Positions 5,013 to 40,968 of a DNA stretch of 42,612 nt are shown piece by piece. Numbering within the stretch: position 1 is the first letter of the stretch; each line of letters opens with the position of its first letter. Both the position numbers and the translations under genes were made by a program. The DNA comes from Hyphomonadaceae bacterium (GTDB lineage: Bacteria > Pseudomonadota > Alphaproteobacteria > Caulobacterales > Aquidulcibacteraceae). The notes below the pieces were generated by a model. That model searched no databases. It saw nothing but the letters and a program-made list of their open reading frames with translations, and was not told the origin of the DNA. The stretch covers positions 1 through 42,612 of the forward strand of contig JADLHI010000175.1 in assembly GCA_020848895.1 (NCBI GenBank), read 5' to 3'.

Positions 5013-5028
5013 TAGGTTTGTTTCCGGC

Positions 5029-11696: not shown

Positions 11697-11746
11697 CGGT
11701 TCGCGCACTGGATGCAACTATGGGCGTATCGCGAAGAGGCGCGACT

Positions 11747-12754: not shown

Positions 12755-12779
12755 GAACGAGGTTGTTGCGATTGCTAGT

Positions 12780-19361: not shown

Positions 19362-20087
19362 TTAAACACGCCAATCGATGGCCTCTGAAGTTGTGGCGCC
19401 AGCACGGGTGTGAAGTTGGTCGCGCAAGCGTTCGCTGTCCAAGATCAGAAGCTCACGCTTGTTCTGGCGAAGGACGCCAGCGCCGGCCAAGAACCGCATT
19501 TCCCGAGTGACTGCTTCACGTTGTGTGCCAGTCGTAGCGGCGATCACATCATGGGTGGGGGCATTTTTTACGAAGATGCCCTCAACTGTTTGTTCGCCTT
19601 GCGCTGCGAGCCGCAACAATTCTGCGTAGATGCGGAAACGCACTTCCAGGGCGGCCAACTCAAAAACGCGGTCGGTAAGCGAAATGACGGTGAGCGCCAG
19701 GTGTGTCGCGACGGTTGTGGCGAAGGCGCCGTTGGAACGCATGAGTTCGGTCAGCGCGTGAGCAGGGCACTCGGCCAACAATCCATCTGTCTCTGCCGTG
19801 ATGGTGAGAGATCGAGGCGTGTCGCTCAACGCCGCGATCTCGCCGAAGTGGCTGCCGGCCGCCAACTGCCGGATCGCTACCTTGCGCCCCACGGCGGATT
19901 CCAGCTTGGCGCTGAACATGCCCTCAATAGTAAAATACATGTGGCTGCCGGCATCGAGGTGCGAGACCACCTCTTCGCGCGGCGCCACCCGGCGCCAAAT
20001 CAGCTTCGCCGCCAAACTATCGAGGTCAGCGTCGCTCAAGCCATCGAGGATATGCACTTTGCGTAGTTTAGCGCGAGCGTCTTCCAT
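19362..20087 (-). CDS. Crp/Fnr-family transcriptional regulator
   Basis: Product of 241 aa from the ATG at 20087 (MEDARAKLRKVHILDGLSDA), with GGAG about 8 bases upstream. Residues about 15-120 are a cyclic-nucleotide-binding beta-roll: GSHMYFTIEGMFSAKL, and the phosphate-cassette-like GSHFGEIAALSDTPRSLTIT with the conserved Gly-Glu and Arg-Ser. A dimer helix follows. Residues about 165-220 are a winged helix (HDVIAATTGTQREAVTREMR). There is no N-terminal cysteine cluster of the Fnr type, so it probably binds a nucleotide. Since a cyclase-like protein is encoded at 24616-27432, it could respond to its product; that link is inference. It diverges from the LuxR-type gene at 20219. Confidence 0.88.
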   Translation of the reverse strand: MEDARAKLRKVHILDGLSDADLDSLAAKLIWRRVAPREEVVSHLDAGSHMYFTIEGMFSAKLESAVGRKVAIRQLAAGSHFGEIAALSDTPRSLTITAETDGLLAECPAHALTELMRSNGAFATTVATHLALTVISLTDRVFELAALEVRFRIYAELLRLAAQGEQTVEGIFVKNAPTHDVIAATTGTQREAVTREMRFLAGAGVLRQNKRELLILDSERLRDQLHTRAGATTSEAIDWRV

Positions 20088-20218
20088 GGGCAGCTCCACC
20101 AGCACCGCCAGTTTTGTCCGTTTTTTCCCGCAGCGCCACCTGAAACCGAGCGTCCCAGTGCGATATTTCACATGGCGGAACGACGACGCATTTGCTGAGA
20201 CAATTGCAGGAGGGTCTC
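20088..20218. promoter_or_regulatory. Divergent promoter region (Crp/Fnr versus LuxR-type gene)
   Basis: The 131 bases between two divergent regulator genes must hold both promoters. A strong ribosome-binding site AGGAGGG at 20208-20214 serves the plus-strand gene. I could not pick out confident -35/-10 pairs or operators by eye. Confidence 0.45.
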
Positions 20219-21226
20219 ATGCAACACGAACTCATCTCGCCAACCGAGACTTGGCTGCAATCGGCAATAGACGCGGCAAACTGGCGCGAGCCGCTCGAAA
20301 CGACCGCGCGATTCTTGAACGCGCGTGCGACGTTGTTGGCTTGGTCGCTCCCAGGGGATGGGTTGGCGTTTGAATCGTCAGCCTCGTCGCCATCGGATTT
20401 CGTTCAGCTCTGTCGCAAGCTTGCTGGCGTTTGCGGGGATACGGGAGAGCAACACGAGCCAGGGTTAGGCTGGCTCACCTGGGCTGGAGCCCATCGCGGG
20501 GCGCCGCAGCAGCGTGTGACATTGTTCGCGCTCTCCGACGAGCCGATTGCTCACCAATCCTTGCAGGCGATGGCTGCGTCGGCTGCGGGCGGGTTGACCA
20601 TAAGAGTCAGTCTTGACGCCACGCGGACGTCATTGTCGCTCATGACCCGTGCATGCGACCAGCTGTGCGCCGGAGTTGTCATCGTTAATGCGGAACTGAA
20701 GGTCGTCGCGCATAATGAAACATGGCGTGGGCTCCTCAGCCGCCAGGATGGCCTTAGCAGCCCAGCCGGAAAACTTGTTTGTCGTAATCGCGCTGATCAA
20801 GAGGCCCTGGCTACGGCGGTCACGAGCGTGCTTACTGAACATCTAGACGAAGCCACGGTGAAGGTGCGTCGCGCGGGCGGCATGGAGCCCTACGTCTTGC
20901 GTGCGAGCACCGCCGGCCGGCAGAGCAACATCCCCGGTCTTTGCTTGCTGATGGTCGTGGACCCCGACCTGGCGCCGACTGCGAACGGTGAAATCTGGCG
21001 GGCGATGTTCGAACTTACCGACTGCGAACTTATTATCGCCGAGGCATTGCTGTCGGGTCGCCGGATTAGCGAAGTCGCCACACGCCGCGGTGTCTCGCGA
21101 GAAACCGTGCGCACTCAGACAAAGCGGATGTTCGCGCGCCTAGGCGTGTCGAGCCAAGTGGAGGCAGCTGTTCGTCTCAGCCGGACAACGCCGTTTCGCT
21201 CGGCGACGGCGCGACGGGAAGCTTGA
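20219..21226 (+). CDS. LuxR-type regulator with a sensor domain shared with the last gene of the borosin cluster
   Basis: Product of 335 aa; the ATG at 20219 is fixed by AGGAGGG 5 bases upstream. Residues about 20-130 form a domain with PSDFVQLCRKL and QQRVTLFALSDEP. Residues about 145-215 look PAS-like (CAGVVIVNAELKVVAHNETW), and residues about 263-325 are a LuxR/GerE helix-turn-helix (FELTDCELIIAEALLSGRRI, then SEVATRRGVSRETVRTQTKR). The N-terminal domain aligns with nearly the whole protein encoded at 28201-28701. That, and the position at the head of the plus-strand genes, makes it the likely pathway regulator of the borosin cluster. The ligand is unknown. Confidence 0.8.
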   Translation: MQHELISPTETWLQSAIDAANWREPLETTARFLNARATLLAWSLPGDGLAFESSASSPSDFVQLCRKLAGVCGDTGEQHEPGLGWLTWAGAHRGAPQQRVTLFALSDEPIAHQSLQAMAASAAGGLTIRVSLDATRTSLSLMTRACDQLCAGVVIVNAELKVVAHNETWRGLLSRQDGLSSPAGKLVCRNRADQEALATAVTSVLTEHLDEATVKVRRAGGMEPYVLRASTAGRQSNIPGLCLLMVVDPDLAPTANGEIWRAMFELTDCELIIAEALLSGRRISEVATRRGVSRETVRTQTKRMFARLGVSSQVEAAVRLSRTTPFRSATARREA

Positions 21227-21397: not shown

Positions 21398-22738
21398 ATG
21401 TCAAACGGTGAGGGCAGTGTGAGCGATGCAGACGCCCATAGCTTTGGCGCGCGTCTCGACCGCATGCCGATCACATCGTTTCACCACGTATTGGCGCTGA
21501 TTATCTCCGCCGGCTTGCTGGTGGACGGCTTTGACATTTTCCTGACCGCCGGAGTCGCCGCCGCGCTCGTGCGGGAGGGTTTGGCGACGTTGGGTGATGT
21601 CGCTCGCCTTTCGATGATCACCTCGATCGCACTTGGGATTGGGGGCGTGCTGACCGGCTTCCTGGCGGACCGCTTCGGCAGGGCGCCGGTCATGCGCGCC
21701 AGCATTCTGATATTGATCGCGGCCGCCATCGGCATGGCTACGTCGCCGAGTTTTGAGCATTTGTTGATTTGGCGGTTCATCGCCGCGCTTGGGCTCGGTG
21801 GCGAGACCGTGCTGGCCTACGGAATGCTCACCGAGTTCATGCCGTCACGAACGAGAGGTCGATGGCTCGCATGGTGCGGACTTCTCGCAAGCGCGGCCCT
21901 GCCCGTGACACTAGGGGTCGGCTATTTCGTGCTTCCCTCCCCAGACGGTTGGAGGTGGATGTTGGCGATCCCAGCGTTTGCGGGCGTTGCGATCTTCCTC
22001 TTGAGATTGAACCTTCCAGAATCGCCGCGCTGGCTCGCGGTGCGGGGCCGGCACGAAGAAGCCGAGGCCGTCCTCGCACGTGTCGAGGCGTCAACGCGCC
22101 ATGCGTTGCCGCCGCTGGCGATTGCACCGGTAGCTCAAGGTGCGGTCGCGATGGATGCGAGGCCGATTTGGCCGAGGCTTATTGCGGCGATAGCTATCAA
22201 CGTCGCCGCGATGGGCGCGGTATACGGCTTTGTATCGTGGTTGCCGACTTTTTTTGTGAAGGAAGGACACGATATCGCGTCATCGACACTTTTTTCGGCG
22301 GTGATGGTGTCGGGAGCGCCATTTGGTGCGTTGATTGCGTTGCTGATTGGCGACCACGTCGAGCGAAAATGGGCGGCCGTTCTGAGCGCTCTGATCGCGG
22401 TAGGGTGTGGCGTGGCGTACGCCAACGCGACGACGGACGGGCAGATATTGGCTGCGGGCTTTGCGGTTGTGCTTTCAATCTATGTGTTCGGGACCTTGGC
22501 GCTCTTCACATACGTCCCCGAATTATTTCCGACCGCTTCGCGTTTGCGGGCCATAGGATTCGCTTCGGCGTTCGGACGCGCCGCGGCGATCGCTATGCCG
22601 CTTCTGGTTGTTCCCATATTCTCGACGTGGGGCCAAAGCGGGGTCGTCGCCCTCGTCGCCTTCCTCCTCATCGCGCAAGCATTCTTGGTCTCGATATTCG
22701 GCATCTCCACGAGCGGTAAACCGCTGGAGCAGGTTTAA
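21398..22738 (+). CDS. MFS transporter, sugar-porter/AAHS-like
   Basis: Product of 446 aa with 12 predicted membrane segments; AGGAG lies about 7 bases before the ATG. Segment 1 contains LLVDGFDIFLTAGVAAAL, the loop between segments 2 and 3 has the MFS signature LADRFGRAPVM, and after segment 6 there is the NLPESPRWLAVRGR motif of sugar-porter and aromatic-acid-symporter families. It should move a small organic solute using the proton gradient. In this setting it may import a precursor or export the finished peptide, but the closest motifs are those of importers. It is 171 bases after the LuxR-type gene and 90 before the amine oxidase gene. Confidence 0.85.
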   Translation: MSNGEGSVSDADAHSFGARLDRMPITSFHHVLALIISAGLLVDGFDIFLTAGVAAALVREGLATLGDVARLSMITSIALGIGGVLTGFLADRFGRAPVMRASILILIAAAIGMATSPSFEHLLIWRFIAALGLGGETVLAYGMLTEFMPSRTRGRWLAWCGLLASAALPVTLGVGYFVLPSPDGWRWMLAIPAFAGVAIFLLRLNLPESPRWLAVRGRHEEAEAVLARVEASTRHALPPLAIAPVAQGAVAMDARPIWPRLIAAIAINVAAMGAVYGFVSWLPTFFVKEGHDIASSTLFSAVMVSGAPFGALIALLIGDHVERKWAAVLSALIAVGCGVAYANATTDGQILAAGFAVVLSIYVFGTLALFTYVPELFPTASRLRAIGFASAFGRAAAIAMPLLVVPIFSTWGQSGVVALVAFLLIAQAFLVSIFGISTSGKPLEQV

Positions 22739-22828: not shown

Positions 22829-24403
22829 TTGATAAATGTTGCGATTGTCGGTGGCGGTGTGTCCGGCTGCTATTGCGCGTATCGATTGGCGCGGGTTCGT
22901 CCGGACCAAACAGTTCATGTCTTTGAGATGGGCAAGAGGATCGGCGGGCGTCTCTTTTCCGCCGAAGTAGAAGGTATGCCCGAGTATCCCATCGAATTCG
23001 GCGGGATGTTTTTCACGAATGAGCAGAAGAACGTCTGGGGTCTTATCGGCGAGCTTGCGAAAGATCAGAAGTGGGCGTCACGGTTGGGTAAGCGCTGGGT
23101 CGACTGGAAGCCGCGCTATCACTATTTGCGCGGCAAGCGACTGGTGAATGCTGATTTCAGCGATCCAACAAAAACGATCCCCTACGACTTGCGGTCCGAT
23201 GAGACGTGTCTCGATCCTACCGAATTGCTTGTATCCAAGATCAATTGTCAGTTTCCTGGGCTTAAAAAGGCGCTCTGGCCCTACCACCCGAAGCCGCGCC
23301 AAGAAACGGCGCTATACCTGCGCAAACCTTGGAAGGGCCGTCCGCTTCACGAGTGGGGCTTTTGGAATTTTCTCAACGAGATATCGAGCAATGAGGCCTA
23401 CGAGCTCATGCTTATTGCGATTGGGTGTTCGTCGGGGCTGCGCAATTCCAACGCGTTCGACGCGATTTGGAGTCTTCTGCACGACGCACAAAGCCAATAC
23501 TATTACCAACTCAACAGCGGCTATCAGCAACTGCCGGAGTGCCTGTTGGAAGCAGCCGAGGAGAATCCGAACGTCAAACGGCAAACCGAGCACGAGGTGA
23601 GTAGGATCGAGGCCCGCGGCCAATCGATGCTCGTTCATTTCGAAGGGCGACGAGAACCCGTCGAGGCGGAACAAGTCATACTTGCGTTGCCGCGCCGGGC
23701 GCTGGAGCGTGTCGAGTTCTCAGGCGTGTTTCCGAAGAGCTTCAAGGACGAAGATTTAGCCGCGGTCATCTCCGTGCCGGCGAGCAAATTGTTCTTGGGT
23801 TACAAGCAGGCATGGTGGAGAGAGGACATCGCGAAAGAAAACGTCCTCCCGAAGGCGGATGTCGCGGCCTCCTACACGGATCTCCCAATTCGACAAATCT
23901 ACTATTACGGCAAGGCCGAAGCGGGCGAGCCCGGCTTGTTGCTGGCGTCCTACGCCGACGACGCAGCGGAATCGTTCTGGAAAGGACTACGGCCGCCGGT
24001 CGACAATGGCGAGGCGCGCTTCCCTGACTTGAGCAGCGCCGCGGGTCCAGACGCCTTTGCGTCTGAAGCGATGGTGCAAACGGCGATCCGCCAGCTGGGC
24101 CTGATGCACCCGGAATTCGTCGTCACTAACCCCGCGGGCGCAAACTTTGTTGACTGGGGTGACGAACCCTACGGCGCGGCCTGGCACGCTTGGAAGGCTT
24201 ATCGCGAAAGTTGGAAGGATTCGAAGCGTATGCGCCGTCCGAATTCAAAGCTGCCAGTCTTCATGTGTGGCGAGGCCTATGCAACGCTTCAGGGCTGGGT
24301 TGAAGGGGCGATCAACACCGCTGAACTTGTGCTTCAGGAAGGATTTGGGCTGCCGCGCGCCGATTGGTTGCCGGCGACGTATGAACTTACAATAGAGGAG
24401 TGA
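22829..24403 (+). CDS. FAD-dependent amine oxidase, probable borosin tailoring enzyme
   Basis: Product of 524 aa from a TTG start; no ATG or GTG lies in frame after the upstream stop. The N-terminus has the FAD-binding Rossmann motif GGGVSG (residues 8-13), an acidic residue ending strand 2 (Glu33) and KRIGGRL, the standard flavin amine oxidase signature. Near residues 478-500, MCGEAYATLQGWVEGAINTA is the C-terminal FAD-binding segment. The family oxidises amines with O2 to imines. The stop is only 3 bases before the precursor gene, so the enzyme could act on a lysine side chain, an N-methyl group or the N-terminus of the peptide. That role is inference from position. Confidence 0.8.
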   Translation: MINVAIVGGGVSGCYCAYRLARVRPDQTVHVFEMGKRIGGRLFSAEVEGMPEYPIEFGGMFFTNEQKNVWGLIGELAKDQKWASRLGKRWVDWKPRYHYLRGKRLVNADFSDPTKTIPYDLRSDETCLDPTELLVSKINCQFPGLKKALWPYHPKPRQETALYLRKPWKGRPLHEWGFWNFLNEISSNEAYELMLIAIGCSSGLRNSNAFDAIWSLLHDAQSQYYYQLNSGYQQLPECLLEAAEENPNVKRQTEHEVSRIEARGQSMLVHFEGRREPVEAEQVILALPRRALERVEFSGVFPKSFKDEDLAAVISVPASKLFLGYKQAWWREDIAKENVLPKADVAASYTDLPIRQIYYYGKAEAGEPGLLLASYADDAAESFWKGLRPPVDNGEARFPDLSSAAGPDAFASEAMVQTAIRQLGLMHPEFVVTNPAGANFVDWGDEPYGAAWHAWKAYRESWKDSKRMRRPNSKLPVFMCGEAYATLQGWVEGAINTAELVLQEGFGLPRADWLPATYELTIEE

Positions 24404-24406
24404 GCA

Positions 24407-24649
24407 GTGTCGAAATTGTATGACCTGATGGCGGCTCTCGCCACCGACATCAAATTGCAGCGCGACTTTGCGCTGGATTCTATGGGAGTGGCGAAGAAGT
24501 ATGGTCTGACGCCGTCCGAGCAAGCCGCGTTGTTCTCAGGCAATCTGGATGAGATATACAGTATGGCGGGTTCGAACGGCTTGGTGATCTGCAAGCAAAT
24601 CACGGCCATCGATCCATGCAAACCGCCGCCGGAGCGAACCAAGAAGTAG
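24407..24649 (+). CDS. Split borosin precursor peptide (LigA-like leader plus core)
   Basis: An 80-aa protein from GTG 24407, with GAGGAG 6 bases upstream and overlapping the amine oxidase end. Residues about 4-54 are a small helical domain: LYDLMAALATDIKLQRDF, AKKYGLTPSEQAALFSGN, LDEIYSMAG. This is the pattern of the LigA-like clasp/leader domain of borosin precursors (compare the OphMA segment with LTPQERAALELGD, recalled from memory). The C-terminal 24 residues, NGLVICKQITAIDPCKPPPE plus RTKK, are a candidate core with hydrophobic beta-branched stretches (LVI, ITAI), two cysteines (62, 71) and a basic proline-rich end. A borosin-type methyltransferase is encoded 2.8 kb downstream in the same operon. 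The precursor identity is inferred, not tested. Confidence 0.8.
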   Translation: MSKLYDLMAALATDIKLQRDFALDSMGVAKKYGLTPSEQAALFSGNLDEIYSMAGSNGLVICKQITAIDPCKPPPERTKK

Positions 24650-27432
24650 GCAACCGTTGCGTGTATGATGGAAACAGTGGTGAAGAGCGGCTTGTCGGCT
24701 ATCTCTTCACCGATATCGACGGCAGCACTGAGAAGTGGGAACGCACGCCTGGCGAGATGCGGGCCGCCCTAGCGCGCCATGATGCGCTGATTGACGAGAT
24801 CGTCGCACGCAACGGTGGTGCAATCCGAGATCATGCCGGAGATGGCGTCTTCGCGGTATTTCCTGCGGGCAATCCGCTGCAATGCGCAATCGACATTCAA
24901 TTGTCTCTGCAGGCACAGGACTGGCGGGAAATCGGCGGCCTGACCGTTCGAGTCGGCATTCATTGCAGCGCTGTCCCGGTTGCGGACGATATTGATCGCG
25001 CTCAAGTGAACCGTGCGGCGCGGATCATGGCGAGTGCCTGGGGTGGCCAGATCGTTCTCTCTTCAGTCGCGGTTGGCGCGTATCCAACGCCCATTGGGTG
25101 CCAGCTCACCGAACTGGGACTATGTCGGTTCAAAGGCATAGACGAGCCGTTGCGATTGCTCGGCCTGCTGCATCCGACATTCCAGCAGGTGGAATTTCCA
25201 CCGCTTCGCGCCCTCGCTGGCGACAGCCATACAGCGTTCGTTCAGGTCAACCCAATTTATGGCCGCGACCAAGAATTGGCGGACGTGATTGAGAAGCTGT
25301 CGACCGACGTGCGCTTGCTCACCGTTGTTGGACCGGGTGGAAACGGAAAGACGCGATTAGCCTACGAAGTGGCGGCCGGCCTTTCGGGCCGCAAGGTGGT
25401 TTACTTCGTGTCGTTGGACGACGCGTCGACAAGCTCTGAGGCGGTGGTGGCGCTTGCCGCAGCGCTTCGTTTTCCTCTTCACCGCCGTGCGTCTCAAGAG
25501 GAACAAATCCTTGAGTATCTGCGCGGCAAGGACTGTCTTATCATCTTTGATCAGATTGACCGTTTGGTGGGAGATGCGAGCTTTTTCGCGCGCGTGCTCG
25601 CGGCATGCCCACGCGTTCGAGTTCTTACTACGAGTCGCGAACCGCTATTGCTGCCCGGCGAAACCGTGTTTCGTCTGTTCGGATTGCCGCTGCCCGGAGT
25701 GGATCGGGAAGCGTTAGACTCGGCGCCGGCCGTTCTTCTCTTTGCGCAAACTGCGCGTGCGGTAGATCCCGGTTTTCGCCTGCACGAGGGTGAACTCGAG
25801 GCGTTTCGCGAAATCTGCAAAACGGTGAGCGGCTCGCCGCTGGCGCTTCACCTCCTGGCGCAATGGTCAAATCTGTACTCCATCCCGGAAATTCTAGAGC
25901 GGCTGAGCGAAGGCCTAGACTTCTTGTCCGAATTGGAGAGCGAATCCCGAAACTTGCGAAAGGTGTTTGAAGGGTCTTGGGAGATCCTTACGCGAGAACA
26001 ACGCGAGGCGCTATCAAGCCTCTCGGTGTTTCGCTCCGGGTTCGACGCGCGCGCAGCGCAAACCGTCGCTGCAACGGGCCCTGCAATCTTGAGTGTCCTT
26101 GAACGCAAGTGCCTGCTCGAACGAAGGGATCGGCGTCGGTTCGTCATGCATCCTTTGATTCATGACTATGCCTTGGCGCGATTGCCGGAGCTTCGGGATG
26201 CTACGGGCGTCGAGCAGACCTTTCGGCGCCATTGTGAATACTACCTCACTCTCATGAGGGAACGTTACGCCGCGGCGCGCGGCACGCAGCAGGGAGCGGT
26301 GTTGGACGAACTCCAAGGGGAGATCGCGAACATCGGAGCGGCATGGCGGAGCGCAATCGAGCGTGAAGATTGGGGCCGAGTGCGCGAATGCGTCGAGCCA
26401 TTGTTCTACTTCTTCGTGTTGAGATCAATGTTTCGCGAGTGCGCCGCGCTTTTTGAACCGGCGGTGGCGGAGCCCGAGCTTCAGCGGTATTTCTTGGCAA
26501 TTCGAGCGAACTGCACCATCCACCAGGGCGACTACACGACAAGCGAAGATCTGGCGCGACGCGCGTTAGACGGCGGTGCGGCAAATCCCATCACCGTTGC
26601 GCATTGTTACCAAGCCCTCGGCAATATCGCCCACGCGCGCGGAGAACTGGCAATTGCGCGACTGCACTACGAACGCGCGTTATCGGAGCGCGTCGGCGCC
26701 GGTGATCAGATGGGCAGCTACTGGTCCGTCATGTCGCTCGCCTGGCTTAATATGCTGCTGCCGGACGTGGCCCAAGCGCGGCATTGGGTGAAGGAAGCGT
26801 ATCGGTTGTGCCAGAAGATTGGGCATCTCGGCGGAGCATTAGCGGTGCATATGTGTGCGGGGGACATTGCAGTGAGCGAAGGACGAGACGATGACGCCCA
26901 CGCAAACTACCGGAAAGCCCTGTCCGTTGAAGAGAGCGTCAATCACCCTCAGTACCGCGTGGCTACGTTGATGCGGGTAGGGGCGCTATATCTCAAGCAA
27001 GGGCGATGCGAAGCATCGATCGGTGCATATGAAGAGGCGTTGGTGATCGCGGAAGTAATTGGAGACCACAGGCAAGTGGTCAATGTTCTGATTGGAGTGG
27101 CTCAGAATAGGCGTCTGGTAGGCGACGCCGAGGCGGCAGCTATTGCTGCGCACCGTGCGCTCTCAGTCGGCCAGGACCTAGGCTCGAAACCCGTCATCGC
27201 TGCGGCGCTGTTGGAATTTGCACGCGCGCAGCGTGATATTGGCGAGGCAAACGCTGCAGCGCGCGCCGTTGGCTTGGCACGGTTACTTGGTGATGAGGCG
27301 GTGCAAGTGGAGGCCGATGCTCTATCTGCAGCCTTGCCGTCAGTGCAAATGGATCACGCCTCGGAGCAGCAAGTGGAGGACGCCGTAATCGAACTCATCA
27401 ATCAACGCGAGTTCGGGGAATTGACGCTCTGA
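24616..27432 (+). CDS. Class III cyclase-like / NTPase / TPR regulatory protein
   Basis: Product of up to 938 aa. The ATG at 24616 overlaps the precursor gene by 34 bases; a GTG at 24661, 12 bases after the precursor stop, is the alternative. Residues 25-185 are a class III nucleotide cyclase domain: FTDIDGST (metal-binding Asp33), AGDGVFAVF (Asp76) and VNRAARI (Asn132, Arg136). The lysine usually found before GDG (VKTTGDG in many relatives) is replaced (IRDHAGDG), so purine specificity or activity is doubtful. Residues 215-480 form an NB-ARC/SWACOS-type NTPase with P-loop GPGGNGKT (239-246), LIIFDQID and TTSREPLL. The remainder, from about 560, is TPR-like. This architecture is a signalling or transcription-linked switch. 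It lies between precursor and methyltransferase. Confidence 0.82.
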   Translation: MQTAAGANQEVGNRCVYDGNSGEERLVGYLFTDIDGSTEKWERTPGEMRAALARHDALIDEIVARNGGAIRDHAGDGVFAVFPAGNPLQCAIDIQLSLQAQDWREIGGLTVRVGIHCSAVPVADDIDRAQVNRAARIMASAWGGQIVLSSVAVGAYPTPIGCQLTELGLCRFKGIDEPLRLLGLLHPTFQQVEFPPLRALAGDSHTAFVQVNPIYGRDQELADVIEKLSTDVRLLTVVGPGGNGKTRLAYEVAAGLSGRKVVYFVSLDDASTSSEAVVALAAALRFPLHRRASQEEQILEYLRGKDCLIIFDQIDRLVGDASFFARVLAACPRVRVLTTSREPLLLPGETVFRLFGLPLPGVDREALDSAPAVLLFAQTARAVDPGFRLHEGELEAFREICKTVSGSPLALHLLAQWSNLYSIPEILERLSEGLDFLSELESESRNLRKVFEGSWEILTREQREALSSLSVFRSGFDARAAQTVAATGPAILSVLERKCLLERRDRRRFVMHPLIHDYALARLPELRDATGVEQTFRRHCEYYLTLMRERYAAARGTQQGAVLDELQGEIANIGAAWRSAIEREDWGRVRECVEPLFYFFVLRSMFRECAALFEPAVAEPELQRYFLAIRANCTIHQGDYTTSEDLARRALDGGAANPITVAHCYQALGNIAHARGELAIARLHYERALSERVGAGDQMGSYWSVMSLAWLNMLLPDVAQARHWVKEAYRLCQKIGHLGGALAVHMCAGDIAVSEGRDDDAHANYRKALSVEESVNHPQYRVATLMRVGALYLKQGRCEASIGAYEEALVIAEVIGDHRQVVNVLIGVAQNRRLVGDAEAAAIAAHRALSVGQDLGSKPVIAAALLEFARAQRDIGEANAAARAVGLARLLGDEAVQVEADALSAALPSVQMDHASEQQVEDAVIELINQREFGELTL

Positions 27433-28214
27433 TGACGCCGGTGCACGGATCCCTTGTCGTTGTAGGAACCGGCATAAAGCTGATTGCTCATTGTACATTT
27501 GAGGCGCAACGAGTCATCGCCGATGCGGAGGTGGTATTCGCCGCCGTGGACCCAGTCGCGTTGCGCTGGATCGAGGGATTGAACGCCGAGGTGATCAACC
27601 TGCAGACCTACTACGGCAACGGGCGTTCAAGACTCGAAACCTATGAGGAGATGGTAGAGGCGATCCTTAGTGCGGTTCGTGCGGGGCGAAAGACCTGTGC
27701 GGCGTTCTATGGCCATCCTGGTGTGTTCGTTTCGCCTTCGCATGAGGCAATCGCGCGCGCGCGCGAGGAGGGCTTCGAAGCCATCATGCTCCCGGGCGTT
27801 TCGGCGGAAGCGTGCCTTTGCGTCGATCTCGGTGTCGATCCGGGTTCGGGTTGGCAGAGCTACGAGGCTCAGGATTTTTATCTCCGGCAACGCCGCTTTG
27901 ATACTTCAACTGCGCTGGTTCTGTGGCAGCTTGGCGTATTCGGCGATTTGAGTTTCAAACAACTCAGTCCTGACGCGCGGCGCCTTCATCTGTTGGCCAA
28001 GGCCCTCATGGAACACTATCCGCCCGATCATGAGGTGACAATTTACGAAGCTGCGACTTTGCCGATTGGTGCAAGTCGCGTGGAGCGGATGCCTCTGAAC
28101 TCCCTCCACTCTGCGAAAGTTTCACAAGAATCGACGCTCTTTGTTCCGCCTGTAGCAAACGGAATCACTCCGTTAGAAAGTCGGCTGGCGACGTTGCGGG
28201 ATGCGCAAGGTTAG
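27432..28214 (+). CDS. Split borosin peptide-backbone alpha-N-methyltransferase
   Basis: Product of 260 aa, start overlapping the previous stop as TGATG. It is a tetrapyrrole-methylase-fold SAM enzyme: GSLVVVGTGI (6-15), YYGNGRSRLETYEEM (60-74), AAFYGHPGVFVSPSHEAI, MLPGVSAEACLCVDLGVDPG, YEAQDFYLRQR and LVLWQLGVFGDLSF. These segments follow, in order and spacing, the methyltransferase half of the fungal omphalotin enzyme OphMA and bacterial SonM. The conserved Arg67 and Tyr71 correspond to OphMA Arg72 and Tyr76. No clasp or core is fused, so this is a split borosin system acting on the separate precursor. It would methylate backbone amides in trans. Comparison with OphMA is from memory. Confidence 0.88.
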   Translation: MTPVHGSLVVVGTGIKLIAHCTFEAQRVIADAEVVFAAVDPVALRWIEGLNAEVINLQTYYGNGRSRLETYEEMVEAILSAVRAGRKTCAAFYGHPGVFVSPSHEAIARAREEGFEAIMLPGVSAEACLCVDLGVDPGSGWQSYEAQDFYLRQRRFDTSTALVLWQLGVFGDLSFKQLSPDARRLHLLAKALMEHYPPDHEVTIYEAATLPIGASRVERMPLNSLHSAKVSQESTLFVPPVANGITPLESRLATLRDAQG

Positions 28215-28701
28215 TGCGCCGAACGTTGTGCAATATATCACGTGGCGGGGAGTGCTCCGAGCCGGCACTATCAATGTCGGAGTCGATGCGTTGCGCGAGA
28301 CGGATATCCTATCTGCTCTGCAAGTCTGGATGGGCGCCGGTCTTGGTCAGACTGAATGGTCAAACCCGTTGACCTGGAGTTTGTCTGCGACCGGCGCCAA
28401 GGCGATTGCACTTGTGCAGAAGAAGCCAGGCGGCATTGACGTCCTTGGCGCTAGCGTTGGCGCTTCCGCGGATTTTCTGCAATTATGCCGGGATATGGTG
28501 GTCGCTTCGTGCGCACCGGGCATACACGAGCGTCATGTCGTGGGCGTCGGCCAGTTAGCTTGGTCGGTCGTGATCGGACAGCGCCTTACGTTGGTGACTT
28601 TTGCGCTTTATGAGAATCGCGCCGATCTTCGGCTTCTAGGCGAGGTGAGCCGCATGGCGGAACGATGCGTCATTTCATCGTTGAGCCACCGGGTATGCTG
28701 A
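28201..28701 (+). CDS. Stand-alone homologue of the LuxR regulator's N-terminal domain
   Basis: Product of 166 aa; the ATG at 28201 lies inside the end of the methyltransferase gene (14-base overlap). Residues about 53-160 align with residues about 22-130 of the LuxR-type protein. Shared positions include W..PL, SADFLQLCRDM versus SPSDFVQLCRKL, and a central GxGxLxW/GLGWLTW strand. RLTLVTFALYENRADLR aligns with RVTLFALSDEPIAHQ. The DNA-binding and PAS-like parts are absent. It could be a ligand-binding partner, an antagonist of the regulator, or a self-resistance or sensing protein for the peptide. No database family is recognised by eye. Confidence 0.7.
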   Translation: MRKVSAPNVVQYITWRGVLRAGTINVGVDALRETDILSALQVWMGAGLGQTEWSNPLTWSLSATGAKAIALVQKKPGGIDVLGASVGASADFLQLCRDMVVASCAPGIHERHVVGVGQLAWSVVIGQRLTLVTFALYENRADLRLLGEVSRMAERCVISSLSHRVC

Positions 28702-29608: not shown

Positions 29609-31591
29609 GTGTCACATCGGACAATATTGCGAATTGCCGCCGTTGCGTTCGGCGTCATTGCCGGCGCCGCCGCCGCAACTCAATTCCTCGCAAGCGCGTT
29701 CGATCGCCAGCCGGCGCTCGGGGCGCCGCTGATCGGCGAAGGCGCGCACGCGATCTACGCGCCTTGGGCGTTGTTCGATTGGTCGGCGCGTTGGAGCGAA
29801 ACGTATCCCAAGCCGTTCGCCACCGCGCAGCTCATCGTGCTGTGCGGCATCCTGGCTGGCGTGTTTGTCGCCGCGCTCGCTACGCGGCGCAGTCTTGACG
29901 TCAAGCCGTTCGGCAAGGGCGCCTGGGCCTCGTTCGAGGATTTGAAGGCGGCGGAGCTGTTCGCGCCAGCCGGCTCGGTGCTCGGCAAGTTCGAGGGCGA
30001 GATCATAGCGTTCGACGGCGCCGAACATCAAATCCTGATCGGCGCGTCGCGCAGTGGCAAAGGCCGCGGCCATGTCGTGCCGACGCTCTTGGCGACGCCG
30101 CATTCGATGCTGGTCCTCGATGTGAAGGGCGAACTCGCCGACGGCGATCCACGCCACGGCTTTCCCGGCACGGCGGGTTTCCGCGAAACGCTTGGGCCGG
30201 TGCTGCGCTTTGCGCCCACGCACGCCGACTCCATCCGCTTCAATCCGCTGTTCGAGATTCCGCGCGGGCCCGACGAAGTGCGCTGGGCGCAGAATCTGAC
30301 GGACGTTCTGTTCGGCGCCAACGAAGACCGAGCCGCAAAAGATTTCTGGCTCCGCAGCGCCTCAAATCTCGTCGCACCGGTCATTCTGCACGTCCTCTAC
30401 GCGGAGCCGTTGGAGCGCAAGACGCTCGCGGTTGTGCGCGAACGGCTGCGTGACATGACGAAGACCGCCGAAGAGATGCGGCGCACGCTGCACCGGAAGA
30501 ATCCGACGACCGGCCAGCCTGAAGTGCATCCCGAAGTGCTGCACGCGGCCGAAAGCTTCCTCTCGGCCGAAGAGCGGATGCGCTCGGGCGTGCAAGCGAC
30601 GGCGGAAAGCATGTTCGGCCTGTTTGCCGATCCGCTGATTGCGGCCAACACCGCCACATCGGATTTCCGCATCGCCGATCTCATGTGCGGCGACAAGCCC
30701 GTCACGCTCTATCTGCAACCGCCGTCATCGGACGTGCAGCGCCTCATGCCGCTCTTGCGCAGCATCATCGATATGACCGGGCGCGGCCTGATGGAGAGCC
30801 AGACAGAGGCCGACGGCAAGCTCAAGCGGCATCGCCTAGTCATGGTGCTCGACGAATTCCCGATGCTTGGACGCATGGAGTTCTTTGAGACGATGATGGG
30901 TGCGATGGCGGGGTACGGAATCCGCGCGTATCCGGTTTGCCAGTCGCTCAATCACATCACGCGAACATACGGGCGCGATAACGTCATTCTCGACAATTGC
31001 GCGATCGTCGTTTCGTTCTCCGCATCCGACGGCGACACCGCCAAACGCATCGCCGACATGGCCGGCGAAGTGTGGGAGGTGCGTGAAAGCGAAACGCAGA
31101 AGAAGCCGAAACCGATCATCGGCTGGGCGCACGGCTCGACGACGCAGCGCGAGGAACGGCGGCCGCTGCTTCTGCCCGCTGACGTGCGTTCGCTGCCGCG
31201 CGACGAGCAATTGATCTTCGTCGCGGGTCTGAAGCCGATCCGCGCCAAGAAACTCAAGTTCGATGAAGAACGCATCTTCCGCGAGCGCTTGCGGCCGGCG
31301 ACGGGCGCGCGCGTCACGCTGACGACGACGCACGACTGGATCGATGTTCGACCGCTCGGCTATCTCGAAGCGCCGGCGCAGCGCGCGCAGGGAATGCGTC
31401 GGCGGCCGGCCATGTCGAGCCAAGGCGATCTCTTCTCGCCGCCAGGACAGAAACTCTCGGACCTCGCGCTTGCCGGCTTCCGCAATCGCGACGGTTCGCG
31501 CCAGGCGCAGCCGCCGAATCCGCCGCCGTCCACGCCTGTGCCAGCCGAAACCGTGCGCGCTGGCCGCGCCGCCAAATCGAAGGGGATTTGA
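29609..31591 (+). CDS. traG: Type IV secretion coupling protein VirD4/TraG
   Basis: Product of 660 aa from GTG 29609. Two N-terminal membrane segments (about 8-28 and 72-92) anchor a cytosolic hexameric ATPase. Walker A is GASRSGKG (about 145-152) and Walker B is LVMVLDEFPMLG (about 410-420), followed by IRAYPVCQSLNHITRTYG, a signature of the RP4 TraG family. The protein delivers the relaxase-DNA complex to the secretion channel. The C-terminal tail is proline-rich and includes QGDLF. It is the first gene of the transfer operon. In related elements relaxase and TraF-like genes lie upstream, but here the upstream gene is the Lrp regulator. Confidence 0.93.
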   Translation: MSHRTILRIAAVAFGVIAGAAAATQFLASAFDRQPALGAPLIGEGAHAIYAPWALFDWSARWSETYPKPFATAQLIVLCGILAGVFVAALATRRSLDVKPFGKGAWASFEDLKAAELFAPAGSVLGKFEGEIIAFDGAEHQILIGASRSGKGRGHVVPTLLATPHSMLVLDVKGELADGDPRHGFPGTAGFRETLGPVLRFAPTHADSIRFNPLFEIPRGPDEVRWAQNLTDVLFGANEDRAAKDFWLRSASNLVAPVILHVLYAEPLERKTLAVVRERLRDMTKTAEEMRRTLHRKNPTTGQPEVHPEVLHAAESFLSAEERMRSGVQATAESMFGLFADPLIAANTATSDFRIADLMCGDKPVTLYLQPPSSDVQRLMPLLRSIIDMTGRGLMESQTEADGKLKRHRLVMVLDEFPMLGRMEFFETMMGAMAGYGIRAYPVCQSLNHITRTYGRDNVILDNCAIVVSFSASDGDTAKRIADMAGEVWEVRESETQKKPKPIIGWAHGSTTQREERRPLLLPADVRSLPRDEQLIFVAGLKPIRAKKLKFDEERIFRERLRPATGARVTLTTTHDWIDVRPLGYLEAPAQRAQGMRRRPAMSSQGDLFSPPGQKLSDLALAGFRNRDGSRQAQPPNPPPSTPVPAETVRAGRAAKSKGI

Positions 31592-31594
31592 CCG

Positions 31595-32026
31595 ATGGCG
31601 CGTAAGGGCATCACCGTCTATTTGCCGCGCGAGCTGGAAGAGGAAGTCCAGAAGCTCGCCAAGGCCGAGCATCGCTCCGATTCCTCGATCATCGCCGAAG
31701 CCGTGCGGATGCGTTTCACGCGTGGGCCTGACGCGCACGCAGAAGCGCAGGCCCGCGAGTCCGCACGGATCGCGGGACGCTTGGACAAGGTTGTCGGTGA
31801 GTCTCTGATCCTTAAGGAGACGCTGCTGCTCTTCGTCCGGGTGTGGTTGGAGCACAACCCGCCAGTGGATGAAGCGATCGAGGAAAGCGCGGCGGCCAGC
31901 GCCGAAGCGCGGTTTGAACGCTTCCTCGACATGGTTGCGCATGGGCTGCAACCGGGCGGCTCAGTCGCCAATGGCGAACTCTCCGCCGCGCCGATCGGCG
32001 CCGATGGCACGGAGGCGCGCCCATGA
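31595..32026 (+). CDS. CopG-family ribbon-helix-helix protein
   Basis: Product of 143 aa. Residues 1-45 are a ribbon-helix-helix DNA-binding domain (MARKGITVYLPRELEEEVQK, then SDSSIIAEAVRMRF). The rest is helical, with a hydrophobic segment LLLFVRVWLEHNPP around residue 85. A CopG gene between traG and trbB is a standard feature of alphaproteobacterial trb operons. It may autoregulate the operon or act at oriT. It starts 3 bases after traG and overlaps trbB by 4 bases. Confidence 0.88.
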   Translation: MARKGITVYLPRELEEEVQKLAKAEHRSDSSIIAEAVRMRFTRGPDAHAEAQARESARIAGRLDKVVGESLILKETLLLFVRVWLEHNPPVDEAIEESAAASAEARFERFLDMVAHGLQPGGSVANGELSAAPIGADGTEARP

Positions 32027-32958
32027 CCGCCGCCCACATCATCGGTTCGTCGCGGCGGCGCTCGGCTTTGGCGCGGGCGCTCGGCGCGAACATCGCCGAA
32101 GCGCTCGCTGCGCCCGACGTGGTGGAAGTGCTCATCAACGCCGACGGCCGCGTCTGGATTGATCGCGCCGGCGCCGGGCTTTTGCTGACCGAGCATCGCC
32201 TAGTCGCCAACGACCGCGAAACGGCGATCCGCCTGCTGGCGCATGAAGCTGGCGAGACAGTTGGCGAAGATCGACCGACGCTGGCAACCATCCTTCCGGA
32301 TTCGGCCGCGCGGGTGCAGGCGGTGTTGCCGCCGCTGGTGGAAGCGCCGGTTCTAGCAATCCGCAAGCGCCCTTCGATCATCTTCACGCTTGATGATTAC
32401 GCGCGCGACGGCATCGCCACGCCCGGCCAAGCCGCGCTGCTGCGTGAGGCGGTTGCGTCCAGGCAGAACATTGTCGTCGCCGGCGGCACAGGCAGCGGCA
32501 AGACTACCTTGCTCAATGCGCTGCTGGCAGAGCCGGCGTTTGCGGACTCGCGGGTCGTGATCCTCGAAGACACCGCCGAACTGCAAATCTCCAGCGCCAA
32601 TGCGGTGCAGCTCCTCACCAAGCGTAGCGATCCGCCAGTGACGATGCGCGATCTTGTGCAGATGACGCTTCGCCTGCGTCCCGATCGGGTCGTCGTCGGC
32701 GAGGTGCGCGACAGCGCAGCGCTCGAAGTCTGCAAGTGCTGGAACACCGGCCATCCAGGCGGACTCCTGACCGTCCACGCCAATTCCGCGGCCGATGCGC
32801 TCACGCGGCTGGAAGACCTCTGCATGGAAGCTGTCAGCGCGCCGCCTAAGCGGCTGATCGCGTCCGCCGTCGATCTCGTTGTCTTCATCGCGCGTGTCGG
32901 GGGCAAGCGCGCGATCCAGCACATCGTCCGCCCCAAAGAAAAAGGAGAGCACTTATGA
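32023..32958 (+). CDS. trbB: Conjugal transfer ATPase TrbB (VirB11)
   Basis: Product of 311 aa. A hexameric inner-membrane-associated ATPase that powers pilus assembly and substrate transfer. The N-terminal domain has DVVEVLINADGRVWIDRAG. Walker A is GGTGSGKT (about 153-160), the Asp box is VVILEDTAELQ, and Walker B/His box follow in LRLRPDRVVVGEVRD and GGLLTVHANSAADALTRLED. Length and order match TrbB of RP4-like systems. It overlaps both neighbours by 4 bases. Confidence 0.94.
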   Translation: MTAAHIIGSSRRRSALARALGANIAEALAAPDVVEVLINADGRVWIDRAGAGLLLTEHRLVANDRETAIRLLAHEAGETVGEDRPTLATILPDSAARVQAVLPPLVEAPVLAIRKRPSIIFTLDDYARDGIATPGQAALLREAVASRQNIVVAGGTGSGKTTLLNALLAEPAFADSRVVILEDTAELQISSANAVQLLTKRSDPPVTMRDLVQMTLRLRPDRVVVGEVRDSAALEVCKCWNTGHPGGLLTVHANSAADALTRLEDLCMEAVSAPPKRLIASAVDLVVFIARVGGKRAIQHIVRPKEKGEHL

Positions 32959-33269
32959 GGAAGACCAATTTGGCGAAGCTCGCCGGGCTGACGCTCGCCG
33001 CACTCGCCTTCGCCGCGCCGGCCTATGCGTCCGGTTCGGGGATGCCCTGGGAAGGTCCGCTCCAACAGGTGCTCGATTCGCTGACCGGCCCGGTGGCGCG
33101 CGCCGCAGCGGTGGCCTCGCTCACAGTCACGTTCTGCGCCTTCATGTTCGGTGAAGGCGGCAGCGCCGTAAAGCGGTTTGCGCTCGTCGGCTTCTGCATT
33201 GCCGGTCTGTTCGCGCTCACCACTTGGGGTCTCGAATTGTTCGGCTTCGCCGGCGGCGCCGTGTTCTGA
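32955..33269 (+). CDS. trbC: Conjugal pilin TrbC (VirB2)
   Basis: Product of 104 aa with a signal-like N-terminus (LAKLAGLTLAALAFAAPAYA, predicted cleavage after Ala) followed by two hydrophobic helices separated by a short basic loop. This is the VirB2/TrbC pilin layout. PWEGPLQQVLDSLTGPVARA is a typical start of the mature protein. TrbC forms the conjugative pilus, in some relatives after cyclisation by a TraF protease, which is not visible in this window. Confidence 0.88.
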   Translation: MRKTNLAKLAGLTLAALAFAAPAYASGSGMPWEGPLQQVLDSLTGPVARAAAVASLTVTFCAFMFGEGGSAVKRFALVGFCIAGLFALTTWGLELFGFAGGAVF

Positions 33270-33279
33270 GGCGCATGAC

Positions 33280-33543
33280 ATGCTCGAAGAACCGGAAGGT
33301 TATCGCATCCCGCTACGCACGTCGTTGACGCGCCCGATCCTGATGGGCGGCGCGCCGCGCACGGCGACGATTTTGAACGCTGGCGTCGGCGTCATCATCA
33401 GCCTCGGGTTGCAACAGCCGCATATCGGCATTCCGCTCTGGCTCGTGCTGCAGGCGGTCTCGGTGTGGGCCACGGCGCGCGATCCCTGGTTCATCGACGT
33501 ATGGCCCCGCCATCTGTGGAAGCCTGTCTATTTCGCGGCGTGA
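33280..33543 (+). CDS. trbD: TrbD (VirB3) inner-membrane protein
   Basis: Product of 87 aa from the ATG at 33280 (MLEEPEGYRIPLRTSLTRPI). A longer upstream open frame would overlap trbC by 92 bases and is unlikely. The conserved start YRIPLRTSLTRPILMGGAPR and two short membrane segments mark VirB3/TrbD, which works with the VirB4 ATPase in pilus biogenesis. It lies 10 bases after trbC and 10 before trbE. Confidence 0.92.
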   Translation: MLEEPEGYRIPLRTSLTRPILMGGAPRTATILNAGVGVIISLGLQQPHIGIPLWLVLQAVSVWATARDPWFIDVWPRHLWKPVYFAA

Positions 33544-33553
33544 GAGAGAAACG

Positions 33554-36019
33554 ATGTTCGACCTTCGACCTTACAAGCAGAGCGGCGCCAAGCTCTCGGA
33601 CTATCTGCTATGGGCCGGGATCGTTGCACCCGGCGTCGTCGTCAATAAGGACGGCGCCTTCCAGCGCACGCTTCAATTCCGTGGACCCGATCTCGATTCC
33701 GCTACGCCGTCCGAACTTATGGGCGCCAGCGCACGGCTCAACAACGCGCTTCGCCGCTTCGGCTCCGGTTGGTGTTTCCACGTCGAAGCGCGGCGTGCGC
33801 CGGCGCCGGGCTATCCCGACAGCACATGGCCTGACGCCGTATCGTGGCTCATCGATGAAGAGCGCCGTCAGGTGTTCGAGACGGCAGGAACGCGGTTCGA
33901 GAGCCGCTATTTCTTGACGCTCGCATGGCTGCCGCCGGCCGAACGGCAAAGCAAGCTGGAGGACGCGCTGTTCGAGGGCGGCGACGAGCCCAAAGCCAAG
34001 AGCGGCGTCGATTATCGCCGCCACCTGGAAAGCTTCATCGAGCGCACCGATCAGCTCATGGCGCTGTTCGAGGCGACGATGGCCGAAGCGGGCTGGCTCG
34101 ATGACGAAGAGACGCTGACCTATCTGCATGATTGCATTTCCGACCGTCGCCATCGCGTCGCGGCGCCGGCGACGCCGTTCCATCTCGATGCGCTGCTGAG
34201 CGACACGCCACTGGTTGGCGGCTTGGCGCCCAAGCTCGGCGCCAAGCATCTGCGTATCATTTCCGTGCGCAGCTTCGTGACCGAGACCGAGCCCGGCTTA
34301 TTGGACGCGCTCAATAGGTTGCCGCTCTCGTATCGGTGGGTGACGCGCTTCCTGCCGCTCGACCGCGAAGACGCGAAGAAGGAGCTGGAGAAGATCAGGA
34401 AGCGCTGGTTCTCGATGCGCAAGAACCTGATGGTCGTCATGCGCGAGGCGATGAGTCAGGAGGAGTCCGTCCTCCATGACAATGACGCCACCAACCAGGC
34501 CGCCGATTCAGATATGGCGCTGCAAGAACTGGGCGCCGACATGGTGGCGGCGGGTTATGCGACGCTAACCATTACCGTCGCCGACGAGAACCCGGACGCC
34601 GCCGACGAAGCCGTGCGGCAAATCCAGCAAGTGACGGACGGCATGGGCTTCGTGACGCAAGTGGAGAGCGTCAACGCCGTTGAAGCGTGGCTCGGGTCGC
34701 TTCCGGGCGGGGCTTACGCCGATATGCGCCGACCGATCGTGCTGACGCCGAATCTGGCGCATCTTCTGCCGACAAGCGCGGTGTGGGCCGGGCCGGAGCG
34801 TAACGCACACTTGAATGGTCCGCCGCTCATGCTGACGGCGACCGATGGCGCGACGCCGTTCCGGTTCGACCTTTACGCCGGCGATGTCGGCCACACCATG
34901 ATCGTCGGGCCGACCGGCACTGGCAAATCCGTGTTGTTATCGACGCTGGTCGCGCAATGGCGGCGCTACGCCAACGCGCAAATCTATCTCTTCGATAAGG
35001 GGCGATCGGCGCGCGCAATAATCCTTGGCATGGGCGGCGATTTCTTCGACCTCGGCGAAGATGGCGCATTAGGATTGCAGCCGCTCGAACGCATCCATGA
35101 TGCCGGTGAATGCGCCTGGGCGCTCGAGTGGATTGTGGGGTTGGTTTCCTCGGCGGGCGTCGCGGTGGCGCCTGAGCTGCGCGCCGAACTCTGGCGCGCC
35201 CTCGAAATCCTGGGACTTCGCCCGCAAGAGGATCGCACGCTCACCTTATATAGCGCGCTGGTGCAGGACGCTTCCGTCCGCGCCGCGCTCCAGCCCTTCA
35301 CCCATGCAGGGCCTTATGGGCGGCTCATCGACCATGAGCGCACGTCGCTTGGTTATGGCGCGGTGCAAGCGTTCGAGATGGATGACCTTATGCGCCGGCC
35401 GCAGGCGGCGGGCGCGGTGTTGGCCGCGCTCTTTCATGTGCTCGAACGCCGCTTCACCGGCGCGCCGACCTTGCTGGTGCTGGATGAAGCCTGGCTCTTC
35501 CTCAAGGACGCCTTCTTCGCGGCTGCCGTGCAGGATTGGTTGAAGACGCTGCGCAAGAAGAACGTCGCTGTCGTCTTCGCCAGCCAGGAACTGGCCGATG
35601 TCGAGGCGAGCCCGATCGCATCCACGATCATCGAGGCGTGCCTGACGCGGGTATTCTTGCCGAACGACCGCGCGCGCGAACCGCGTTCGCGCAGCTTCTA
35701 TGAACAGCTCGGCCTCAATGCGCGCCAGATCGGCTTGATCGGCGGCGCCACGCCCAAGCGCGACTATTATCTCGTGGCGCGAGACGGCTGCCGTCTTTTC
35801 GAGTTGGGCCTTGGGGCCGCGACGCTCGCCTTTGTCGGCGCCTCTCGGCCCGAAGATCATACGCTGATGGACCGCGTGTTGGCGGAAGCGGGTCAAGACG
35901 GCTTTGCCGCCGCCTGGCTCGAAGCGCGCGGTCTCAAGGACGCAGCGGCCGCCGTGCGCCGCTTCAACACGCAATCGCAAATTGTCACCGCGCCGGCCGT
36001 GATGGCCGCAGCTGAATAA
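33554..36019 (+). CDS. trbE: TrbE (VirB4) ATPase
   Basis: Product of 821 aa, full length for the family. The N-terminal domain (FDLRPYKQSGAKLSDYLLWA) precedes a C-terminal RecA-like ATPase with Walker A GPTGTGKS (about 455-462), LYLFDKGRS-like segment and Walker B LLVLDEAWLFLKDA (about 638-651), then VVFASQELADVEAS. It is the largest ATPase of the channel and drives pilus subunit extraction and assembly at the inner membrane. No truncation or frameshift is visible. Confidence 0.95.
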   Translation: MFDLRPYKQSGAKLSDYLLWAGIVAPGVVVNKDGAFQRTLQFRGPDLDSATPSELMGASARLNNALRRFGSGWCFHVEARRAPAPGYPDSTWPDAVSWLIDEERRQVFETAGTRFESRYFLTLAWLPPAERQSKLEDALFEGGDEPKAKSGVDYRRHLESFIERTDQLMALFEATMAEAGWLDDEETLTYLHDCISDRRHRVAAPATPFHLDALLSDTPLVGGLAPKLGAKHLRIISVRSFVTETEPGLLDALNRLPLSYRWVTRFLPLDREDAKKELEKIRKRWFSMRKNLMVVMREAMSQEESVLHDNDATNQAADSDMALQELGADMVAAGYATLTITVADENPDAADEAVRQIQQVTDGMGFVTQVESVNAVEAWLGSLPGGAYADMRRPIVLTPNLAHLLPTSAVWAGPERNAHLNGPPLMLTATDGATPFRFDLYAGDVGHTMIVGPTGTGKSVLLSTLVAQWRRYANAQIYLFDKGRSARAIILGMGGDFFDLGEDGALGLQPLERIHDAGECAWALEWIVGLVSSAGVAVAPELRAELWRALEILGLRPQEDRTLTLYSALVQDASVRAALQPFTHAGPYGRLIDHERTSLGYGAVQAFEMDDLMRRPQAAGAVLAALFHVLERRFTGAPTLLVLDEAWLFLKDAFFAAAVQDWLKTLRKKNVAVVFASQELADVEASPIASTIIEACLTRVFLPNDRAREPRSRSFYEQLGLNARQIGLIGGATPKRDYYLVARDGCRLFELGLGAATLAFVGASRPEDHTLMDRVLAEAGQDGFAAAWLEARGLKDAAAAVRRFNTQSQIVTAPAVMAAAE

Positions 36020-36031
36020 GGGGACGCCAAG

Positions 36032-36748
36032 ATGAAGCATAGATTCTCCAAACTCATGGCGACGGTGGCGCTCGCGGCCGTGCTCGTGGCGTCTCCCGCC
36101 AGCGCGCAGATGCACGTCATCGATCCATCGGTTCTTGCCCAATCGATCAGGCAAGTGGCGCACATGGTCGAGCAAATCCGCAATCAGGTGCGCCAGGTCG
36201 AACAAGCCGCCGCCATGCTGCGACAAAACCCGCTCCAGCTCTCGCCGGAATTGTCGCAATCGATCACGGAGGCCCGCGCTCTATTCGAGACGGCGCAAGG
36301 CTTGGCGTTCGAGGCCAATCGCATCGGCGAAGACATCCGCACGCTCTACCCAGAGACCTGGGAAGATTTCGATCTTGATCAGGTCTTAGGTCAATCGGAC
36401 CAATGGCTGGCGCAGAGTCGCGCCAGCGTCCAGCGTGCGATGGAGGCGGAGGCCCGCGCCGTACAATCGATCGAACGCACGCAAGGACGCATCGACCGGG
36501 CGCTCACTTCTTCTTCCGATGCCGAGGGGCAGACGGGCGCGATCCAGGCGGGCAACCAATTGCTTGGCATCCAGGCGTCACAGCTCGCGGAGATCGAAGC
36601 GCTGCTGATCGCGCAAGGCCGTGCGCTGCAAACCGAACGCATGGAGCGGATCGCGCGCGAAGAGCGCGCCCGCGAAGTGCAGCGCCGTGCTTTCCCGACT
36701 GAGCGGACGACGGCGGCGCAACCAGCACAATCGGCGTTCGAGAACTGA
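36032..36748 (+). CDS. trbJ: TrbJ (VirB5) periplasmic protein
   Basis: Product of 238 aa with a signal peptide (KLMATVALAAVLVASPASAQ, cleavage after Ala25). The mature part is helical, with MHVIDPSVLAQSIRQVAHMV and the QVEQAAAMLRQNP segment typical of TrbJ, and a C-terminal basic coiled-coil region. VirB5-type proteins sit at the pilus tip. In RP4-like operons a small lipoprotein TrbK (entry exclusion) usually follows; here only 14 bases separate trbJ from trbL, so trbK is absent. Confidence 0.9.
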   Translation: MKHRFSKLMATVALAAVLVASPASAQMHVIDPSVLAQSIRQVAHMVEQIRNQVRQVEQAAAMLRQNPLQLSPELSQSITEARALFETAQGLAFEANRIGEDIRTLYPETWEDFDLDQVLGQSDQWLAQSRASVQRAMEAEARAVQSIERTQGRIDRALTSSSDAEGQTGAIQAGNQLLGIQASQLAEIEALLIAQGRALQTERMERIAREERAREVQRRAFPTERTTAAQPAQSAFEN

Positions 36749-36762
36749 GGCCGCGTTGAATC

Positions 36763-40961: not shown

Positions 40962-40968
40962 CGGGGCG

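Follow-up and report, generated by a model that had tools for sequence, protein, structure and literature searches.

The DNA analysed here (the window) is the entire contig C181 of a Hyphomonadaceae bacterium, 42,612 nucleotides long, from a draft assembly totalling 3.57 Mb over 510 contigs, with a completeness of 83%. At positions 22829-28701 it carries a compact plus-strand gene cluster that probably encodes the pathway of a split borosin. A SonM-type enzyme would N-methylate the core of a separate precursor, and a flavoenzyme with the L-amino-acid oxidase (LAAO) fold would oxidise an amine of the same peptide. The oxidation step is suggested by the fusion of oxidase and precursor in homologous proteins, by their in-frame coupling in the window, by the adjacency of their genes and by the active site of the oxidase.

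The initial annotation had proposed a split borosin, with a backbone N-methyltransferase and a separate precursor, and this is backed by the sequence, by profiles and by the predicted fold of the precursor. The genes it named are all open frames at their coordinates, and the tight packing it described is evident from genes that overlap or sit 3 bases apart across the following features:

22829..24403, plus strand: FAD enzyme with the L-amino-acid-oxidase fold (PF01593 2e-33; arginine oxidase 4e-71)
24395..24409, plus strand: junction between oxidase and precursor, read from the sequence as GAGGAG, an in-frame TGA at 24401-24403, GCA and a GTG at 24407
24407..24649, plus strand: borosin precursor of 80 residues, with the binding domain at residues 1-57 and the tail GLVICKQITAIDPCKPPPERTKK
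24616..27432, plus strand: class III nucleotide cyclase domain, STAND-type NTPase and TPR repeats (Pfam Guanylate_cyc, NB-ARC and TPR; start codon uncertain)
27432..28214, plus strand: SonM-type peptide backbone N-methyltransferase (SonM 7e-67; seven SonM residues conserved)
28201..28701, plus strand: stand-alone relative of the N-terminal part of a LuxR-type regulator at 20192-21226 (BLASTP E 5e-11)

These matches also uphold the partners that had been named, namely the FAD amine oxidase, the cyclase/NTPase/TPR protein and the homologue of the regulator's sensor part. No Pfam family was found in 28201-28701, and a PHROGs search of three proteins gave no match.

Oxidase and precursor as one chain or a stop-split pair

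In the window, oxidase and precursor share one reading frame and are parted by a single TGA, with the GTG start of the precursor three bases on and the Shine-Dalgarno-like GAGGAG lying ahead of it inside the last oxidase codons. At another locus (L002, the same stretch as L122) the two form a single frame of 602 residues. A search with this fused protein scored 7999 candidates, and in 20 of the best 120 listed, out of 2128 proteins, the oxidase continues into a binding domain and core (P0145 is a fragment). One of them, P0139, aligns continuously to window positions 22835-24622 with just the one TGA inside, and its tail, MSKLYDFLIKMSK...GLVICKDVW, plainly resembles the window precursor despite the lack of a LigA call. 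When eight fused proteins were compared with Pfam, LigA was found in five (P0122, P0125, P0127, P0133 and P0148), above the cut-off only in P0127, and was absent at E 0.1 in P0130, P0139 and P0144.

All 19 fused tails compared retain a methionine where the binding domain begins, and in L122 it is preceded by GGAGGA, so that internal initiation may also yield free precursor from the fused genes. Split loci other than the window have the precursor in a different frame from the oxidase, either overlapping it or following it. A longest-contig size identical to that of one of the 120 listed methyltransferases was found for 9 of the 20 fused proteins and for 14 of the 100 other oxidases, which is most simply explained by oxidase and methyltransferase lying on the same contig.

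An artefact of one assembly was considered as a source of the fusion and rejected in view of the 20 fused proteins listed. It is also unlikely that the TGA of the window is a sequencing error, since the precursor P0121, which differs from that of the window by three residues, is likewise listed at 80 residues. The oxidase P0203, 99% identical to that of the window, ends at the same residue, and it may represent the window's own cluster. A quick tree without bootstrap was made from 93 oxidases, with 79 taken from the list of 120 and the rest from the window and 13 loci, and on it the fused or split state changes at least eight times, seven of these changes being forced by starred branches. The window falls in a supported group of six together with the split P0180 and P0187 and the fused P0139, P0142 and P0148. 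As the tree is unrooted with respect to this question, the split state of the window may reflect either fission or an ancestral split.

Methyltransferase and binding domain

Compared with solved structures, 27432-28214 matched SonM at 7e-67, dbOphM at 4e-52 and OphMA at 2e-48, with the top porphyrin methylase at 0.0057, which favours the proposed borosin-type methyltransferase by far. In the alignment, the window enzyme has Y61, R67, Y71, Y93 and F99 at the positions of SonM Y58, R67, Y71, Y93 and F99, and W165-Q166 at those of SonM W166-Q167, so that the seven residues compared from the active site and locks are all conserved. According to PMC8429565, substitutions at Y58, R67 and Y71 of SonM lower catalysis 14- to about 98-fold, Y93F chiefly raises the KM for S-adenosylmethionine, and F99, W166 and Q167 are part of the "locks". 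By close homology to SonM, methylation of the window precursor is likely.

The reading of 24407-24649 as a separate precursor with a LigA-like clasp domain is likewise supported. It matched SonA at E 0.0023 in a single-sequence search and at 1.4e-14 with a profile of nine precursors, which also matched the OphMA clasp region at 3e-4; the Pfam LigA match (0.0055) is under the family cut-off. In a structure search with the whole fused P0139 model, SonA was not among the matches listed, which the oxidase domain filled, and the precursor of the window was therefore folded and searched separately from the oxidase. Its predicted fold lies 0.9-1.3 A from SonA in nine of the eleven SonA rows. A true LigA subunit was rejected, given a profile E of 0.28 for LigAB and a fold 2.3 A away. 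A homologue search with the precursor alone found one protein.

The precursor of another locus, L036 (9952-11445), has a binding domain followed by about ten DAAIIKGYA-like repeat units and is possibly a multi-core borosin. At L062, a PRMT-like class I methyltransferase (8778-10001; PRMT_C 9e-7) lies directly before a borosin methyltransferase and bears a C-terminal borosin-binding domain (profile E 9e-10), making it a second enzyme type with this domain. This hints that enzymes of other kinds may generally be brought to borosin methyltransferases by acquiring the binding domain.

The oxidase active site

Among solved structures, the window oxidase is closest to arginine oxidase (4e-71), followed by ancestral amino-acid oxidases; these relatives include lysine oxidases and general L-amino-acid oxidases. 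The FAD amine oxidase fold was also found for the fused P0139. FAD-binding positions are conserved across the oxidases, and the lysine column, which we take to be the flavin-proximal lysine of the family, is kept in the window enzyme and reads K in 133 of 137 alignment rows and R in the other four.

The arginine of the GGMR motif, presumably the residue that binds the substrate carboxylate in such oxidases, is R in all three solved sequences. It is replaced by F or S in all 14 cluster oxidases (the window, which has F, and 13 loci including L121), and in the 20 fused proteins the position holds F, H, Y, S, V or, in one, a gap. Seven oxidases are unlinked, the stretches read around them containing neither a methyltransferase nor a binding domain; of these, six have R (L138-L143, the residue of L139 being taken from the alignment since the motif search had matched elsewhere) and one, L148, has H. 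Among the best 120 oxidase homologues listed, R occurs in six, from P0223 onwards. The loss of this arginine fits a peptidyl substrate, for which it is no proof, and since the window enzyme lacks it we class the enzyme by its LAAO fold and not as an amino-acid oxidase. All the fused proteins but P0130 (19 of 20) have a lysine among their final 20 residues; in P0127 and P0132 it precedes the hydrophobic stretch.

Distribution of the cluster

Thirty genomes of the genus were compared. The methyltransferase is present in 11 of them, at 12 places, and strong oxidase matches (E < 1e-20) occur at 13 places, 12 of which adjoin the 12 methyltransferases; four more genomes have only weak oxidase matches (2e-5 to 7e-4). 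The thirteenth oxidase lies beside a precursor on a 6.3-kb contig of the window's own genome (C136, locus L121). L121 is a second cluster, with a different core (CFMLGLTRSSKSE), and its genes for LuxR, oxidase, precursor and cyclase/TPR protein are truncated where the contig stops. At the 12 methyltransferase places, the cyclase/NTPase/TPR protein is found at 11 (not L131), a LuxR relative at 10 (two of them short), a binding-domain precursor at 10 (not L129 or L130) and a CRP-type relative, by similarity, at seven; the Pfam test of CRP-type proteins was made on that of the window. The set of partners had been called unusual. Its composition is not unique, as oxidase and cyclase/TPR protein occur together at 11 of the 12 places, but the link between oxidase and precursor, with its fusions and in-frame junction, is stronger than was claimed.

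Short frames without a binding domain lie between oxidase and methyltransferase at L130 (9224-9391, containing PKIVHA twice) and L129 (8758-8913, ending KIVHAMIEQR). Upstream of the oxidase of L127 is a CHAT-domain protein of 1450 residues (3334-7683), a candidate protease.

The idea that the oxidase accompanies borosins in general was rejected, since it is present at 7 of 80 kept loci. Five of these are alphaproteobacterial and coincide with stretches of the genus (G163, G117, G107, G112 and G157), and two are from Wenzhouxiangella (L005 and L056), where oxidase, binding-domain precursor and methyltransferase occur together. In a class-wide sample of 385 genomes, six others have the oxidase and three others the methyltransferase (each at E 1e-25). 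Two genomes of this sample have both, about 2 Mb apart (G341) or on different contigs (G436).

Bacterial split forms had been described as few. This is contradicted by the 3784 proteins homologous to the methyltransferase at E 0.001 (the 120 listed are the best of these), by a single genome collection in which at least 569 of 595 matched stretches were relatives, and by PMC11395268, which gives eleven borosin types, 0-X, with types IV-X split.

Proposed pathway and alternatives

We propose that the precursor is translated by reinitiation past the oxidase stop and that its binding domain would clasp the methyltransferase and deliver the core (about residues 59-68) to the active site, in the way that SonA serves SonM. 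The methyltransferase would N-methylate the core backbone, and the oxidase would attack an amine of the peptide to give an aldehyde or imine. We would guess that this is a lysine side chain, the simplest target in an uncleaved core. A protease would be required to free the core, and none was seen in the cluster. More tentatively, the cluster may exemplify a wider, oxidase-based architecture, in which oxidase and substrate peptide are made as one chain or as a stop-split pair and are clasped by a separate methyltransferase; the two enzymes would act on the tethered core to give N-methylated, oxidised (e.g. allysine-bearing) peptides under a local cyclic-nucleotide circuit.

It is rather unlikely, though worth serious thought, that the cluster encodes a plain split borosin and that the oxidase is an accessory enzyme that turns over free amino acids, or else some small amine, to supply peroxide or a building block, with fusion and coupling serving co-expression only. 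Such a role would suit the nearest solved relatives, which act on amino acids, and the two separate proteins of the window. It would also agree with the GGMR arginine, since the cyanobacterial rows P0205, P0219 and P0241, whose gene surroundings are not known, lack it as well and its loss is thus not specific to borosin-linked enzymes. However, an accessory oxidase would hardly be expected to be fused repeatedly to the peptide itself, to adjoin every methyltransferase place in the genus, or to have lost this arginine from all the cluster and fused forms.

A non-catalytic oxidase domain, serving as carrier, stabiliser or redox sensor for a product that is methylated only, seems improbable. The interchange of fused and split states would agree with such a role, as would three fused cores with no lysine inside or after the hydrophobic stretch, but the FAD-binding and lysine positions are conserved. 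It is scarcely credible that an ordinary cobalamin/porphyrin methylase lies next to an unrelated LigA-like protein: the Pfam labels, TP_methylase and, weakly, LigA, could be read in this way, yet the matches to SonM and OphMA are far stronger than that to any porphyrin methylase, so that this identity was rejected on sequence, and the profile and fold of the precursor match SonA. We hold methylation and oxidation of one and the same peptide to be the more likely reading of the cluster.

Regulation and flanking genes

The genes 5' of the oxidase are:

19362..20171, minus strand: CRP/FNR-type regulator with a cyclic-nucleotide-binding domain and a helix-turn-helix (PF00027 5e-14, HTH_Crp_2 4e-10)
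20192..21226, plus strand: LuxR-type regulator with a PAS-like middle part (GerE 1.4e-5; PAS_4 merely 0.065)
21398..22738, plus strand: major facilitator superfamily (MFS) transporter, a possible exporter (Sugar_tr 2e-37)

The transporter is not a constant member of the cluster, with a homologue at one further locus (L004). The N-terminus of 24616-27432 matches the Ma1120 cyclase at 1.2e-12. Both aspartates, which we assume to be metal-binding, and VNRAAR, presumably the Asn/Arg motif of class III cyclases, are present; the lysine that precedes the GDG motif in Ma1120 reads R. From its domains and the flanking position of the LuxR- and CRP-type regulators, we suppose that these would receive its signal.

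On the 3' side (29609-42562) are conjugation genes, including a coupling protein and TrbB-, TrbE- and TrbG-like proteins, then a tyrosine integrase (40969-42354, minus strand) and tRNA-Phe (42487-42562) at the end of the window. We read this region as the end of an integrative conjugative element. The minus-strand genes of 1-15200 resemble a polysaccharide cluster, confirmed by Pfam only for a UDP-sugar dehydrogenase (12780-14135).

Relation to known systems

Split borosins are well known, and the link to an oxidase appears to be new, although this is not certain given the literature covered. Neither a link between borosins and an oxidase nor this cluster composition was found in the open-licence literature, which did not cover the main split-borosin genome-mining papers, and the available parts of PMC11395268 and PMC8429565 name no oxidase. 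PMC13097080 names a copper amine oxidase beside graspetides. If the oxidase acts on the tethered core, nature would here have joined an enzyme to its substrate to produce N-methylated peptides that bear a reactive aldehyde or imine, which would be useful for peptide engineering, and oxidation would be added to the methylation for which these peptides are known. As fused and split versions both occur naturally, what tethering does can be tested directly, and further borosin partners could be sought by looking for enzymes that end in a binding domain.

The oxidase part of the fused homologue shares its fold with the L-arginine oxidase 8t8a and the ancestral oxidases 7eii and 8jhe, at 30-35% identity to 8jhe and 8t8a and 28% to 7eii. 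It differs in the replaced GGMR arginine, and the fused forms add a C-terminal binding domain and core. In NCBIfam, 24616-27432 matches HaaT (NF041717) best, a protein with TPR repeats from clusters for cyclophane RiPPs. The match covers the TPR part (E 9e-23); at 80 bits it is far under the cut-off of 1125, and the window protein has a cyclase domain.

The type IV system SonM/SonA of Shewanella oneidensis (PMC8429565; PDB 7ltc and others) consists like that of the window of separate proteins with homologous binding and catalytic parts and an LVI-containing core. The operon of the window adds the oxidase, the cyclase/NTPase/TPR protein and regulators, and its core is longer than that of SonA and begins four residues nearer the shared glycine 55. 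Class 3 borosins, as described in PMC11395268, divide the work in the same way, with binding domain and core in one protein and the methyltransferase separate; a fused partner named there is a GGDEF domain. In OphMA and the fused fungal borosins (PDB 5n4i, 6mjf and 7twk) the methyltransferase and clasp domains are recognisably related to those of the window. However, the fungal proteins fuse the methyltransferase to the core, whereas in the relatives of the window it is the oxidase that is fused to the core and the methyltransferase that stands apart.

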